Below the pieces are notes generated by a model, which saw only the letters and a list, made by a program, of their open reading frames with translations, had not been told where the DNA came from and ran no database searches. Position numbers and translations under genes: made by a program. Of a DNA stretch of 64,000 nt, positions 29,809 to 61,897 are shown piece by piece (positions within the stretch are counted from its first letter, which is position 1; every line of letters starts with the position of its first letter). The stretch comes from Blastopirellula marina DSM 3645. Lineage in GTDB: Bacteria; Planctomycetota; Planctomycetia; Pirellulales; Pirellulaceae. The stretch covers positions 1,104,989-1,168,988 of the forward strand of contig NZ_CH672377.1 in the NCBI RefSeq assembly GCF_000153105.1, read 5' to 3'.

Positions 29809-30939
29809 TTACTTGAAATCTTTCCGGTCCAATAAGCCATCCTTATTGCGGTCCAAAACTGGAAACATGCGGGGAGGACCGTCGAACTCTTCCTTGGTCA
29901 CCTGGCCATCTTTATTGCGATCGGCGCGAGCCATCACTTGCTCGTAGGTGAGCCGACGTTCGCGACCCATTGGCGAACCTTGGCCCGAACGCGACTCGCT
30001 GGCTTTGCTGGTCGAAGTCACGGCTACGTTCTTCACGGCCTCGTCGCTCTTCAATGTACGCTCGAAAAATTGATTGACCATTTCGGTCACTTCGACGCCG
30101 CCAAAACCCTTTCCATGTCCGCCCCCTTCGATGGTATGCAAATGAACCGGAAGGTCCGCTTTTTTCAGCGCATCAAACAGCAATTCACTTTGATAGTGGG
30201 CGACGGTCGGATCGGCGTCTCCGTGCACGATCAAAAACGGGGGAGTCTTTTCGCTGATATACTCAATGGGGTTCGCCTTGGCCGCTTTTTCTTTGTTTTC
30301 GAGAATCGGTCCGCCGATCAACTTCGACTCCGGCGAGTTGGGATCGAGATGTTTCCGCGCCCGGGGAATCGCTTTCACGTCCATCTGAAGCAGGTCGGTC
30401 GGACCATAGTAGTCGCAAACGGCCTGGACTCGGCTGGAAACGTCGAGATGCTCACCGACATCAAACTGTCCGCTGTCACTGGTCGTCCCTAACAACGACA
30501 CCAGATGCCCACCGGCCGAGCTTCCCCAGACGCCAAACTGATCGGGCTGGATGCCGTACTTTCCAGCGTTGGCTCGTAACCAGCGAACTGCCGCTTTGCA
30601 GTCTTCGATCTGGGCCGGGAAAATCGCCTCACCGCTTAGTCGATATTCGACGCTCGCAACGGCATAGCCTTCTGATGTCAGCCGCCGCGCGGGACAACCA
30701 GCTTTGCTTCCCCCCATCCAGCCGCCGCCGTGAATCCAGATGACCAGCGGCAACGGTTCCTTCGCTTTCTCGGGCAGATAGAGATCGAGTTTTAGCTCGC
30801 GATCCCCAATTTTGGCGTAGGTCAAATCCTTTTTCATCTCGACTCCAGGAGGAAGCTGTCGGGACGGTTGCCCTAGCGCCGCCGTCGATACGATTGTCGC
30901 CAAAATCAGCGATGCCGCACTCATCACTTTGGTAATCAT
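29809..30939 (-). CDS. Exported alpha/beta-hydrolase (esterase) fused to two EF-hands
   Basis: 376 residues. A signal peptide (1-23, STAALG) precedes a BD-FAE/esterase-lipase domain (about 35-290) with the oxyanion motif IHGGGW, the nucleophile elbow GSSAGG, an aspartate in HGDADPTV and the histidine in GGGHGKG. Two EF-hands sit at the C-terminus: DRNKDGQVTKEEF and DRNKDGLLDRKDF. The fusion suggests calcium-dependent folding or anchoring outside the cytoplasm. It is the first gene of the run ending at the 28185 terminator; the gap to the dioxygenase is 126 bp, so an internal promoter is possible. Confidence 0.88.
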   Translation of the reverse strand: MITKVMSAASLILATIVSTAALGQPSRQLPPGVEMKKDLTYAKIGDRELKLDLYLPEKAKEPLPLVIWIHGGGWMGGSKAGCPARRLTSEGYAVASVEYRLSGEAIFPAQIEDCKAAVRWLRANAGKYGIQPDQFGVWGSSAGGHLVSLLGTTSDSGQFDVGEHLDVSSRVQAVCDYYGPTDLLQMDVKAIPRARKHLDPNSPESKLIGGPILENKEKAAKANPIEYISEKTPPFLIVHGDADPTVAHYQSELLFDALKKADLPVHLHTIEGGGHGKGFGGVEVTEMVNQFFERTLKSDEAVKNVAVTSTSKASESRSGQGSPMGRERRLTYEQVMARADRNKDGQVTKEEFDGPPRMFPVLDRNKDGLLDRKDFK

Positions 30940-31189
30940 GGAGAATATCTCCCTCGATTTGATGTGAAACCGTTTTTGCCGTTATCTACCGAACGCGTGA
31001 GAGATAGAGAAGTTTCGCGTGTTGCTGAAAGTACTGGCATATATCCCAGTGAACCGGAAAGAATCCGTAAGCTTTATTCAGGTCGGACAGTGACGCAGAA
31101 AATCGGCTGGCGTCGCCTTTATCAACGAAAAGTCATTTCGAGGCAAATTGCATCACGATTTCCCTAAATTTCTCCCGTCCAGCTTGCCG

Positions 31190-31215
31190 ATTATTTTTAC
31201 CCGGGTAAAAATAAT
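31190..31215. promoter_or_regulatory. Perfect 26-bp palindrome, probable operator of the DUF2239 gene
   Basis: The half-site ATTATTTTTACCC (31190-31202) is followed directly by its exact reverse complement (31203-31215), centred on CCCGGG. It ends 29 bp before the DUF2239 ATG and is much more AT-rich than its surroundings, where the promoter is expected. A perfect dyad of this length in this place is most simply a binding site for a dimeric regulator. The rest of the gap (30940-31189) shows no gene. Confidence 0.7.
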
Positions 31216-31244
31216 ACCGCACCCGAGCTTCCTAGGAGAGAAAC

Positions 31245-31865
31245 ATGCAAGCGACCGCTAGAACTGCGTGCACCGCGTTTGAGGGCTTTCGACTGATCGG
31301 CTCTGGAGAGTTGGCCGCGATCGCACCGGCGATCCACCAGTCGCTTCATATAGAGGACCATGCGCCGATTCTGATCTTCGACGACGCGTCGGCACATCAA
31401 GTGGAAGTTGACTTTCGTGGAGATCTGGCCGACGTGCTGGATCGACTGGAAACAGCGGCCCAATGGGCGCTCGAAGATGCGCCGCCAACTTCAGCGCCCC
31501 GCGGTCGCGGACGTCCCAAATTGGGCGTGGTCGCTCGCGAAGTGACGCTGTTGCCGCGGCATTGGGATTGGCTCGACACGCAATCAGGCGGCGCTTCTGC
31601 GGCTTTGCGCCGCTTGGTTGAGGAAGCGAAGCGCGTCAGCGGACCGGCCGATCGTATCCGGCGCTCCCAAGAGGTCGCCTATCGCTTTATGTCGACCATG
31701 GCCGGCGATATGGCGGGATTTGAAGAAGCGTCGCGAGCGCTGTTCGCGGCGGAAGAAACGCGATTTGACGAGATGTCGGCGACTTGGCCGGCGGATGTTC
31801 GCAACTACGCCAAACGGTTGGCCGAAGCGGCGTTTCATCCCGAGCCGGCGCCCAGCGTTTCGTAG
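31245..31865 (+). CDS. DUF2239 family protein, possible ribbon-helix-helix regulator
   Basis: 206 residues; the ATG follows CTAGGAGAG. The N-half (FEGFRLIGSGELAAIAPAIH, FDDASAHQVEVDFRG) and the centre GRGRPKLGVVAREVTLLPRHWDWLD then GASAALRRLVEEA match DUF2239 proteins. The centre (about residues 84-130) has the pattern of a ribbon-helix-helix: a basic arm, a short strand (REVTLLP) and two helices. The C-terminal part (VAYRFMSTMAGDMAGFEEASRALFA) is helical. Function is not established; DNA binding is my inference, supported by the perfect palindrome 29 bp upstream, which could make it autoregulatory. Confidence 0.82.
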   Translation: MQATARTACTAFEGFRLIGSGELAAIAPAIHQSLHIEDHAPILIFDDASAHQVEVDFRGDLADVLDRLETAAQWALEDAPPTSAPRGRGRPKLGVVAREVTLLPRHWDWLDTQSGGASAALRRLVEEAKRVSGPADRIRRSQEVAYRFMSTMAGDMAGFEEASRALFAAEETRFDEMSATWPADVRNYAKRLAEAAFHPEPAPSVS

Positions 31866-31904: not shown

Positions 31905-31946
31905 CAAAAAAGCCGAAGACAAGTCACCCTGTCTTCGGCTTTCTTT
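31905..31946. terminator. Bidirectional terminator between DUF2239 and the helicase gene
   Basis: AAAGCCGAAGACA (31909-31921) and TGTCTTCGGCTTT (31930-31942) form a perfect 13-bp stem, with A-rich sequence on the left and T-rich on the right. It serves both convergent genes. Confidence 0.85.
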
Positions 31947-33329: not shown

Positions 33330-33968
33330 ATCATTCCTAACGTAGTTAAGTGCAATGCGACCGCAACGGGCGCAGTCCTCGAGCGCTCGAGGATATAGGT
33401 GTATGCTCCGGCGGCTACTGGCGGCGTCAATGACAATACAAATTGGTGCAATGACCAATTCGCGCGACATGACGCTCATGTCGAGAGACGCAAAGATCCG
33501 CTACCTGCAGATCGGCCGCGAGCCAGTCGCGTTCATTCGGCCTGTCATTTCAGATTCGCAAGCTAGTAGGCGAGCGGCCGAATGAAAGGAAGCGATATAT
33601 GCCAGTCTGAATAATCTTGAACGCCGAGCAAATCCGAAGAAGCTAGGCCAAAAGATCGAAGTAGATCAAACCAACGCCGCTTACGACGTTGGTGCGTGCT
33701 CAACTCTTAAACCGATGAGATATCCATCTGATCGGTTCAGTGGGAAATTGTAGCTGCTAACGTGATTTTGGATAGGGGGAAAATACATTCCCTCCAGCGG
33801 ATTGCCGAAGTAAGTCCCTCCCGCCCGGAAAGTCGGCGTAATTCCTCGATAGTGAGGAGAAAAAAGCGGACAATGCTATCAAATTCAAGCGACTCTCCTG
33901 CGGTTGGCGGCCGCGCCCAGTAGCGTACAATCGACCCTGTCGCATCCACAGGGAACGGGGAGAAACGT
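33330..33968. other. Long gap with three inverted repeats between divergent genes
   Basis: About 640 bp without a credible gene. It holds CCTCGAGC followed by its exact complement (33377-33392), a 7-bp stem ACCAACG/CGTTGGT (33670-33693), and a 12-bp stem with one mismatch (33710-33737, AACCGAT...ATCGGTT). The first lies about 50 bases upstream of the helicase start and could be in its 5' leader. The others could belong to an unrecognised small RNA or to regulatory sites of the plus-strand genes. Confidence 0.4.
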
Positions 33969-59968: not shown

Positions 59969-60982
59969 TTAGCCCGCTTTGCGAAGTTCGACCTGACCGC
60001 CGATCAGATAGTCTCGCAAACGATCGAATTCTTCATTTCCCTTGAAATGCAGGACGATCTTCCCTCCCCGGGCCGTCTGTTTGATGTCGACCTTGGTTCC
60101 CAGGGCCATACGGAATTCCTGCTCTAAGGACGCAACTTGATCGCTTGCGGTTCGCCCTTTTTTGACCGGCTTCTTGATGGTCGCAGGTCCATCCTCCGCA
60201 TGAATGAAATCCTGCACCGCTTCTTCAGCAGCGCGGACGCTCCAACCTTCGTCGAAGATCCGACGCGCAAACTCGACTTGGATTCCTTCTTCGCCCAGCG
60301 GCAACAACGCCCGCGCATGTCCGGCGGTCAGCTCTCCCATCATCACGGAGGTCAGCACCGGCTCGGGCAGCTCCAACAATCGGACCAAGTTGGCCACGGT
60401 CGAACGATCGATGCCGATCCGCTCGGCCAGTTCGCTTTGCGAACAGCCGTTTTCGTGCATATAGCGCTCAAACGACATCGCTTTTTCGATCGCGTTCAGA
60501 TCTTTCCGCTGCAAGTTCTCAACGATCGCCAATTCGGCGACGGTCTGGTCGTCAGCTTCAAAGACCCGAACCGGCACGTGGTCCCAACCGGCGACGATCG
60601 CGGCGCGCAGGCGGCGTTCGCCCGAGATCAGTTGATAGCGCCCGTCGATCTGACGAACTGCGATCGGCTGCAGCATATCGTGCTGCCGCAGGCTTTGTGC
60701 TAGTTCGGCGATCTCTTCGTCGTTGAACTCTTGTCGCGGTTGATAGGGGTTCGCTTCGATCTCTTCGACCGGCAGCTTGATCAGCCGTTCGCCTACGAAC
60801 TCTTCGGGAGCCGGCGCGGCGCTGGGGATCGGTTCGTTGTGCTGATCGGCGTCACCGTCATCAGGGTTGAAGACCCGCGGTGAGCCTGCTTCGATCGGTG
60901 CGTCGATCATGCCGCCGGTTTCGTCCATCGGCCCGCCCAACAACGCCGCCAATCCACGTCCCAGACGTTTTTGCTTAGTCAC
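59969..60982 (-). CDS. parB: Chromosome-partitioning protein ParB (CTPase, parS binding)
   Basis: 337 residues from the GTG at 60982, which overlaps the parA stop by 8 bases; the frame stays open further upstream but only within parA. The N-terminus starts TKQKRLGRGLAALLGG, typical of the ParA-interacting tip. The linker (about 20-80) is acidic. LIKLPVEEIEANPYQPRQEF, then SGERRLRAAIVAGWDHVPV and the HTH region SQSELAERIGIDRSTVANLVRLLELP are the ParB/Spo0J core, with the C-terminal dimer domain at 265-337. ParB loads at parS and slides as a CTP clamp. The matching parS sites lie just upstream of parA. Confidence 0.96.
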   Translation of the reverse strand: MTKQKRLGRGLAALLGGPMDETGGMIDAPIEAGSPRVFNPDDGDADQHNEPIPSAAPAPEEFVGERLIKLPVEEIEANPYQPRQEFNDEEIAELAQSLRQHDMLQPIAVRQIDGRYQLISGERRLRAAIVAGWDHVPVRVFEADDQTVAELAIVENLQRKDLNAIEKAMSFERYMHENGCSQSELAERIGIDRSTVANLVRLLELPEPVLTSVMMGELTAGHARALLPLGEEGIQVEFARRIFDEGWSVRAAEEAVQDFIHAEDGPATIKKPVKKGRTASDQVASLEQEFRMALGTKVDIKQTARGGKIVLHFKGNEEFDRLRDYLIGGQVELRKAG

Positions 60983-61727
60983 GCTCGAGTACCTCCATGC
61001 ATAGTTCAATGTAAGCGCGCGCTCCTCGTGAGCGGGGCGCATGATCAATCACAGAACGACCGTGGCTGGGCGCCTCGCTGACGAGGACATCCCGCGGCAC
61101 CACGGTGTCAAACACTACTTCGCCAAAGAAGTCGCGGACTTCGTCCTCGACCTCAGCGGTTAACTCTAGTCGGGGATCGTGCATGGTCAGCACGATCCCG
61201 CCGAACGCCAGGCGATCGGGCTTCTGTTGCATCACGCCGCGAATCACCTGGATCATCTGCGTCAGCCCTTCCATCGCGAAATACTCGCATTGGATCGGCA
61301 TCAGCACTTCGGTCGACGCGGCCAGCGCTGTTTGCGTCAGCTTACCGACCGATGGCGGACAGTCGATCAACACAAAGTCGTAACCGGCCATGCCGCGTTC
61401 CAGGTGCGACTGCAGGACGGCGGCGTGGGGCTGCGACTGATCATCCGAAGCCAGGGTCTCGACATCCTGAAAGCTGCGGCTGCCGGGCAACAGGTCCAGA
61501 CCATCAATCGCCGTCGTTTGAATCGCGTCCCGCAGCGATTGCTGCAATACCAATGGATGTCGGTCCGTCGGCGCCAAATCCAATCCCGTGGTCGCGTTGC
61601 ACTGCGGGTCGAGATCGATCAGCAGCGTGCGCTGAGCGGCCTTGGCCAGAGCGACGGCTAGATTGATAGCCGTGGTCGTCTTGCCGACGCCTCCCTTTTG
61701 ATTCGCGATGCAGATGATTCGAGCCAC
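60975..61727 (-). CDS. parA: Chromosome-partitioning ATPase ParA
   Basis: 250 residues from a GTG. A ParA/Soj/MinD-type Walker ATPase: deviant Walker A KGGVGKTTTAINLA (residues 10-23), LIDLDPQCNATTGLDL, and the Walker B-like FVLIDCPPSVGKLT. Late conserved parts are VLTMHDPRLELTAEVEDEVRDFF and VVPRDVLVSEAPSHGRSVIDHAP. It drives segregation of ParB-parS complexes. Upstream lie three parS sites within about 250 bp of its start. It overlaps parB by 8 bases (GTGACTAA), so the two are coupled. Confidence 0.96.
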   Translation of the reverse strand: MARIICIANQKGGVGKTTTAINLAVALAKAAQRTLLIDLDPQCNATTGLDLAPTDRHPLVLQQSLRDAIQTTAIDGLDLLPGSRSFQDVETLASDDQSQPHAAVLQSHLERGMAGYDFVLIDCPPSVGKLTQTALAASTEVLMPIQCEYFAMEGLTQMIQVIRGVMQQKPDRLAFGGIVLTMHDPRLELTAEVEDEVRDFFGEVVFDTVVPRDVLVSEAPSHGRSVIDHAPRSRGARAYIELCMEVLERD

Positions 61728-61881: not shown

Positions 61882-61897
61882 TGTTTCACGTGAAACA
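61882..61897. promoter_or_regulatory. parS: parS site 2 (perfect consensus)
   Basis: TGTTTCACGTGAAACA is a perfect 16-base parS palindrome, 22 bases from the end of site 1. Confidence 0.95.

Follow-up and report, generated by a model that had tools for sequence, protein, structure and literature searches.

Does a perfect DNA palindrome lying directly before a gene of the DUF2239 family serve as the binding site of that gene's own product? The question is raised by a locus in the window (the whole 64-kb stretch of DNA that was analysed), where ATTATTTTTACCCGGGTAAAAATAAT at 31190-31215 is its own reverse complement over 26 bp, with the flanking G and A unpaired, and where 29 bp separate the end of this dyad from the ATG of the DUF2239 gene at 31245. 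Both the dyad and its distance from the gene had been described in the original prediction and were borne out by these coordinates. The dyad is the longest loop-less perfect palindrome in the window, the runners-up having arms of 9 and 8, and when the window was simulated 60 times with a first-order Markov model, the longest such palindrome had an arm of 12 in three runs and of 13 in none. The second-longest perfect palindrome, TCCTCGAGCGCTCGAGGA at 33376-33393, lies near the start of a DEAD-box helicase frame. When up to three mismatches were permitted, TTTTTACCCGGGTAAAAA had a single match in the window; genome-wide it had a single exact match, and four sites with up to three mismatches against six for the reversed control. 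No second site was found in the window's genome by this mismatch scan or by a profile search (R1, see below). It is conservation across other genomes, and not palindrome length, that provides the evidence of dyad function. The features of the locus are as follows.

31184..31189, plus strand: putative -35-like element TTGCCG, weak, kept in the same-genus homologue L002
31190..31215, no strand: candidate operator, the perfect 26-bp dyad, equivalent to site 2 (-10-proximal) of the two-site arrangement of homologues
31206..31212, plus strand: putative -10-like element TAAAAA/AAAAAT within the right half of the dyad, from the sequence and the alignment to R1
31234..31238, plus strand: ribosome-binding-site-like AGGAG, 6 nt ahead of the ATG, from the sequence
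31245..31865, plus strand: DUF2239 gene (206 aa), proposed autoregulator, from the open reading frame and a Pfam match
31500..31520, plus strand: AT-hook-like basic segment RGRGRPK, residues 86-92, with G89, R90 and P91 invariant in 73 sequences
31527..31637, plus strand: strand-helix-helix-like core, residues 95-131, inside the most conserved stretch of the family
31533..31538, plus strand: A97 and R98, the residues found to covary with the operator's two central base pairs
31906..31945, no strand: terminator-like hairpin in the gap between DUF2239 and the DEAD-box helicase gene, which converge

The encoded protein matches PF09998 over residues 9-193 (E 6.8e-75; 251 bits, cut-off 25), and DUF2239 is the sole Pfam family above cut-off, with no helix-turn-helix family among the matches. 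The gene stands by itself, the BD-FAE esterase frame upstream being on the opposite strand and starting at 30939, and the helicase frame downstream converging on it; two terminator-like hairpins were found against a shuffle mean of 1.8, a count no higher than chance. DUF2239 is single-copy in this genome and patchy in the Planctomycetota, where it was found in 7 of 294 genomes, with the planctomycetes L018 and L061 among the carriers; outside this phylum, Caulobacter vibrioides also encodes it. Elsewhere in the window, TGTTTCACGTGAAACA, which we take to be the canonical parS sequence, is located at 61882-61897, 154 bp upstream of frames recognised by eye as parA- and parB-like (59969-61727).

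The 26-bp dyad is not a local oddity. Looking for it upstream of other DUF2239 genes had been proposed earlier, and related sites were found there in 80 of 80 loci and, in a wider set, in 123 of 125. The 80 loci (L012-L091), the top-ranking 80 among at least 583 matches, lie near the query; their record titles name Chloroflexi, Acidobacteria, Verrucomicrobia, Planctomycetes, Chlorobi and Armatimonadetes, as well as Melainabacteria, Actinomycetes, myxobacteria and several classes of Proteobacteria, many being metagenome bins. With at most three mismatches, TTTACCCGGGTAAA occurs upstream of DUF2239 in 80 of 84 loci (L027, L071 and L078 omitted) vs 4 of 1,045 control stretches from the same loci. 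A matrix scan of L012-L091, using a matrix derived from those very loci, gave two sites in 74, three in 3 and one in 3, and 64 of the 80 neighbouring site pairs were 27-29 bp apart, mostly 28 bp. The wider set comprised 125 of 130 loci (L146, L156, L157, L198 and L211 omitted); there, a site scoring >15 was present in all loci except L004 and L155 and two sites in 109, vs one control stretch with a site and none with two (n = 892). L004 appears frameshifted and was left unaltered and excluded from alignment A1. A site was also found in 43 of the 45 loci outside the matrix training, a few of which come from genomes already represented. The consensus of 55 site pairs is AATTTTACCCGGGTAATATTGACnnnnnAATTTTACCCGGGTAAAAT, with A/T flanks, and is drawn from those of the 80 loci that have a spacing of 27-29 and two sites both scoring >18 (alignment A3); the protein alignments A2 and A5 comprise 73 and 69 sequences, respectively.

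Among matches to plasmid records, 6 of 24 were examined (two Deinococcus, Paenibacillus, Comamonas, Phyllobacterium and Acinetobacter), and all six carried two sites scoring >10. In the plasmid-labelled record of Acinetobacter baumannii (L243), DUF2239 is 34% identical, the centres have drifted to ACCCTGAT and ACCCCGAT, and the spacing is 19 bp. In three Chlorobiaceae loci (L029, L043 and L057), the spacing of the sites is 53-54 bp, almost double the usual distance; residue 97 is Pro there and the centres are mostly ATCCGGAT. A phage origin was considered and rejected, only two phage records having been found, both under one Acinetobacter phage name. Two unusual copies were also observed, namely a 367-aa DUF2239 frame in an actinomycete metagenome-assembled genome (L078, 3001-4101), nearly double the usual length and possibly a fusion, and a second DUF2239 match within one genome covering the C-terminal half of the profile only, positions 85-182 (L157, G490:C23:28585-28881).

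As for promoter elements, TTGAC lies between the paired sites, and the right end of site 2 gives a -10-like hexamer. Across the 71 pairs spaced 25-31 bp apart, TTGA or TTGC was found by site 1 in 67, and a TATAAT-like hexamer (at least 4 of 6) followed 16-18 bp on in 61, a count made without a control where site 2 is itself A/T-rich. In most pairs, site 1 ends at the -35-like element and site 2 lies on the spacer and the -10-like element. A symmetric operator is therefore found on the gene's own promoter and is kept among orthologues, as is characteristic of an autoregulated transcription factor. At the window locus, site 1 is absent; what remains is the -10-proximal site, preceded by TTGCCG, and L002 retains both. 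A consensus sigma-70 scan called no promoter at the window locus and did not pick up the -10-like element.

A profile of the two-site promoter built from sequence only (R1, 55 sequences) was searched in whole genomes. It matched the DUF2239 promoter in 29 of 29 genomes encoding DUF2239 (E≤1; L016 omitted) and gave this promoter as the top match in 25, another place outscoring it in G295, G296, G309 and G319. In the window's genome, R1 positions 20-48 aligned to G000:C1:1136172-1136199 (E 0.0039). R1 and PF09998 were then run on identical genome sets, with stricter R1 filters for sets of more than 40 genomes. In the order of G304 (199 genomes), R1 (E≤1e-3) was found in 24 genomes and DUF2239 in 26, with an overlap of 24. 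In 15 of these genomes there are sites remote from every DUF2239 gene, located on a different contig or at a distance of hundreds of kb, as full two-site matches in 11 and as one-site matches in 4 (G630, G661, G689 and G712). All 15 encode DUF2239, so that such trans sites occur in 15 of 26 genomes with DUF2239 vs 0 of 173 without it (Fisher 5.7e-16, P values of this kind being too small because genomes of one order are related). In the order of G318 (200 genomes), R1 was found in 11 and DUF2239 in 14, with an overlap of 10 in which every site adjoins DUF2239. Among the 294 Planctomycetota genomes (E≤0.005), R1 was found in 5, of which 4 encode DUF2239. Genomes with DUF2239 and no R1 match numbered 4 of 14 in the order of G318, 2 of 26 in the order of G304 and 3 of 7 in the Planctomycetota (E 0.005). 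Sites elsewhere in the genome thus go with the presence of DUF2239 in the order of G304, the exceptions lying outside it: G360, in the order of G318, lacks DUF2239 and has a one-site match (E 4.5e-4), and the planctomycetote G088 lacks DUF2239 and has a weak match (E 7.7e-4). Since the trans sites are missing where DUF2239 is missing, a site merely travelling with the DUF2239 gene would not explain them. Together, these distributions suggest that in some bacteria DUF2239 most likely governs other genes besides its own through the dyad.

Eight extra places matched by R1 were inspected. Two Kaistia have one ahead of a GIY-YIG-like gene, Kaistia terrae has one ahead of an alpha/beta hydrolase gene, and Dyella and Pigmentiphaga each have one ahead of a DUF1330-like gene; the others precede a gene labelled by eye as carotenoid-oxygenase-like in Corallococcus (L126), a second DUF2239 in Microvirga that has a GIY-YIG-like gene as its neighbour, and one further gene in Ralstonia. 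For the Ralstonia trans site (L129), a GIY-YIG gene was considered and rejected, no such relative being present in G296. In 14 regions, the trans targets comprise GIY-YIG-like, DUF1330-like, alpha/beta hydrolase and SDR genes, of which the first two are often divergent with sites in common. The GIY-YIG-like proteins (L227-L240 and L281-L286) form a family of small proteins tied to DUF2239; at E≤1e-10 they were found in 14 of 199 genomes, all of which encode DUF2239 and each with at least one upstream site scoring >12, while no relative was found in the window's genome (E 1e-8). The tyrosine of the second motif (YVG) of I-TevI is W in 20 of 20 aligned sequences, and a column that differs between 1mk0 (R) and 1ln0 (A) is never R and is I or V in 17 of 20; it follows that the GIY-YIG-like protein may not be a nuclease. 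Eight of 199 genomes, 7 of them with DUF2239, have a member of the DUF1330-like subfamily (E<1e-60); six of these seven genes have two sites right upstream and the seventh follows DUF2239, the lone gene from a genome lacking DUF2239 (L257) has no site, and neither do 14 more distant DUF1330-like genes that were inspected. The label itself is weak, one of two proteins scanned having reached Pfam DUF1330 at 22.4 vs a cut-off of 23, and the Paenibacillus protein having no Pfam DUF1330 match, though so named in its record.

As for the neighbours of DUF2239 itself, at least 14 of the 80 loci have a MatE gene immediately downstream of it in the same orientation, 14 of 14 such frames matching MatE, and a GIY-YIG-like frame lies beside it in 11 of 80; when the neighbouring frames of these loci were clustered, no regulator gene was recognised in the 14 largest clusters. 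On the mobilizable Paenibacillus plasmid pJ45TS6 (L242), the DUF2239, DUF1330 and alpha/beta hydrolase genes are consecutive and downstream of a predicted tetracycline efflux gene. The MatE neighbours and this gene row suggest a connection with chemical stress, and no more than that.

A further line of evidence comes from the protein. In 123 loci (the siteless L004 and L155 omitted), an altered centre, meaning that one or both of the two best sites have a central dinucleotide other than CG, was found in 7 of 10 loci with Gly at residue 97 and in 3 of 113 with other residues. Column 97 ranks first of all protein columns for the operator centre (P 1.9e-7; nearer 1e-4 once corrected, as four operator features and about 200 columns were tried), and column 98 second (4.0e-4). 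With ATCCGGAT as the feature, column 97 (through Pro) was joint third at 1.05e-4, confounded by clade as this comes mostly from one Chlorobi group, and for two further operator features it did not stand out. The centres that accompany Gly97 are CCAAGG, CCTTGG, CCAGGG, CCCTGG and CCGGGG. On a tree built without columns 97-98, there were about nine changes of the Gly and about nine of the centre, the two coinciding in six lineages (L027, L037, L061, L078, L090 with L152, and L199); Gly97 lineages that keep the CG centre are L014, L074 and L200, and altered centres lacking Gly97 are found in L033, L149 and L205. None of 2,199 simulated pairs of independent traits overlapped in seven leaves, and a sign test has no power here because the well-supported branches form only 2-3 independent pairs. 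We read this covariation as residues 97-98 directly reading the dyad axis. Specificity residues just before helix A are typical of ribbon-helix-helix (RHH) proteins, and it is columns 97 and 98 that rank first and second here, on statistical and not structural grounds.

Taken together, DUF2239 is proposed to be a transcription factor that binds the dyad, represses its own promoter and, in some bacteria, controls a small regulon, a reading to which we assign a probability of about 0.85. We infer binding, repression, an inducing signal and the fold, whereas the site, its conservation, the distant-site association and the covariation were computed. DUF2239 would bind the dyad ATTTTACCCGGGTAAAAT as a symmetric oligomer. 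Residues 97-98, which immediately precede the two helices of the core, would read the base pairs on the dyad axis, and the adjacent GRGRPK segment may hold the A/T-rich flank. A pair of sites spaced by about 28 bp would, in most loci, embrace the gene's own sigma-70-like promoter, site 1 abutting the -35 and site 2 covering the spacer and the -10, and because of these positions binding most likely represses the gene. A signal would release the repressor from its own promoter. In some loci, repression may extend to the MATE efflux gene just downstream, and the wider regulon would consist of GIY-YIG-like, DUF1330-like, alpha/beta hydrolase or SDR genes preceded by the two-site layout or by one site. 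Since one perfect site is left in the window's genome, DUF2239 probably controls only itself there, and what is left of the circuit seems to be a single gene with a single site. The original proposal of an autoregulatory DNA-binding DUF2239 is thus well supported by the dyads found across phyla, by trans sites accompanying DUF2239 and by the covariation between residue and operator.

Three other readings of the dyad have been weighed. DUF2239 might bind it as an activator that recruits RNA polymerase from site 1, whose centre falls near -43 when reckoned on the consensus; class II activators bind next to the -35 element, and site 1 ends at a -35-like element in most pairs. That reading is unlikely, given that site 2 lies on the spacer and the -10-like element, that the window retains just site 2, and that with TTGA/TTGC in 67 of 71 pairs no helper seems needed. 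It is more improbable still that an unlinked transcription factor, such as a TetR-like repressor, binds the dyad and that DUF2239 is merely its most constant target. The dyad does resemble a classical repressor operator, other genes share it, and the neighbours are only partly identified; yet this factor would have to share the sporadic distribution of DUF2239, down to the contrast in trans sites between genomes with and without it, and would leave the covariation of residues 97-98 of DUF2239 itself to be accounted for. The GIY-YIG protein was rejected as the binder, being missing from 11 of the 24 genomes with R1 sites. As for a dyad that works as RNA, in a leader attenuator or terminator, a perfect inverted repeat just before the gene could fold (folding was not computed), but the sequence has neither loop nor T run, homologues have two short imperfect dyads fitted to -35/-10-like elements, and the same sites serve divergent gene pairs, so that an RNA attenuator was rejected as scarcely credible. 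Repression by DUF2239 through the dyad is accordingly the reading that we retain.

How DUF2239 would contact DNA is less settled. The original prediction had placed an RHH at residues 84-130, and here the two helices were found where predicted, whereas there was no confident strand and no Foldseek or hhalign match. The AlphaFold monomer (pLDDT 89) comprises an alpha/beta N-terminal domain (7-78), a linker with RGRGRPK, a helix at 104-111, a long helix at 116-152 and a helical end, residues 90-97 having a pLDDT <50. When segment 84-152 was modelled alone (pLDDT 70), strands were obtained at 94-96 and 99-101 and helices at 104-110 and 117-131. The strand of an RHH pairs solely in the dimer, and the segment model is compatible with an RHH whose strand needs the dimer. 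Foldseek gave no PDB match at E≤0.001 (best E 0.63 for the whole model and 3.6 for the segment); VIA-align of the whole model gave a best Z of 6.6, to a pectin methylesterase inhibitor, with helical or low matches and no RHH row, and of the segment a single row (Z 2.6) that was not an RHH. Against four RHH proteins, too small a set to decide the matter, hhalign gave probabilities of 0.7% for the segment and 2.1%, on an unrelated stretch, for the whole family. Of the PDB profile searches, one returned no match and another E 0.7 or worse, NCBIfam gave E 0.047 at best, and no Pfam RHH family is among those listed for 69 DUF2239 members. None of these negatives is decisive, and missing matches do not by themselves exclude an RHH fold.

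The alternative, that DNA is bound by an AT-hook-like arm together with a hairpin or helix pair of a fold of its own, falls just short of an even chance. It draws on the lack of RHH matches in Pfam, the PDB profiles, hhalign with four sequences and Foldseek, on the segment model having both strands within one chain, and on residue alternation ahead of the proline that, by inspection, departs from the usual RHH register. Against it, the order of basic arm, short strand, proline-capped helix, G-x-S turn and second helix is RHH-like, a dimer strand is beyond the reach of a monomer model, and a residue that covaries with the dyad axis suits a central beta ribbon more than two separated recognition helices. 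The covariation thus favours a central ribbon, and the odds of an RHH fold in DUF2239 are put at about even. More speculatively, and rather doubtful as a whole, DUF2239 may have founded its own repressor fold family, spread horizontally with its operator, with the GIY-YIG-like protein as a dedicated non-nuclease partner that acts as signal reader, anti-repressor or co-repressor; the two would belong to a chemical-stress circuit together with MATE pumps, the DUF1330-like protein and hydrolases.

If correct, these proposals would assign a role to a so far uncharacterised Pfam family, present in more than eight named bacterial groups, and would supply its operator, a candidate residue for DNA specificity and a set of target genes; the covariation also predicts how a change at residue 97 should shift DNA specificity. 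In the open-access literature searched (subscription papers and preprints lying outside the search), DUF2239, PF09998 and COG3644 are unnamed, in agreement with the earlier statement that no function is assigned to the family. The operator strings turned up there only in work on eggplant and on yeast, no relevant setting. Among the matches listed, none concerned a GIY-YIG/DUF1330 regulon of this kind, and those on RHH autoregulation were general. An autoregulator with a small regulon is of a known kind; the role of DUF2239, its operator and its regulon appear undescribed in that literature.

Among known systems, the local TetR/MarR regulators of efflux operons share with DUF2239 the proposed self-regulation and, through the MatE genes downstream in at least 14 of 80 loci, the efflux setting, and differ in that DUF2239 matches no helix-turn-helix family in Pfam. 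The GIY-YIG domain of I-TevI resembles the putative partner protein, whose profile A4 matches 1mk0 (E 2.7e-8), and differs from it at the YVG tyrosine, replaced by W, and at the differing column, which has no R. RHH autorepressors such as CopG, Arc, MetJ and ParD have in common with DUF2239 symmetric operators on their own promoters, paired sites, a strand-helix-helix-like conserved core, a basic arm and specificity residues before helix A; DUF2239 departs from them in the lack of a sequence or fold match, in the added N-terminal alpha/beta domain and in the helical C-terminal part. With AT-hook segments, to which we liken RGRGRPK, DUF2239 shares the GRP core, invariant in 73 sequences and flanked by basic residues from R86 to K92 ahead of the core, as well as the A/T flanks of the operator, the predicted difference being a single hook that adjoins a specific DNA-reading core.
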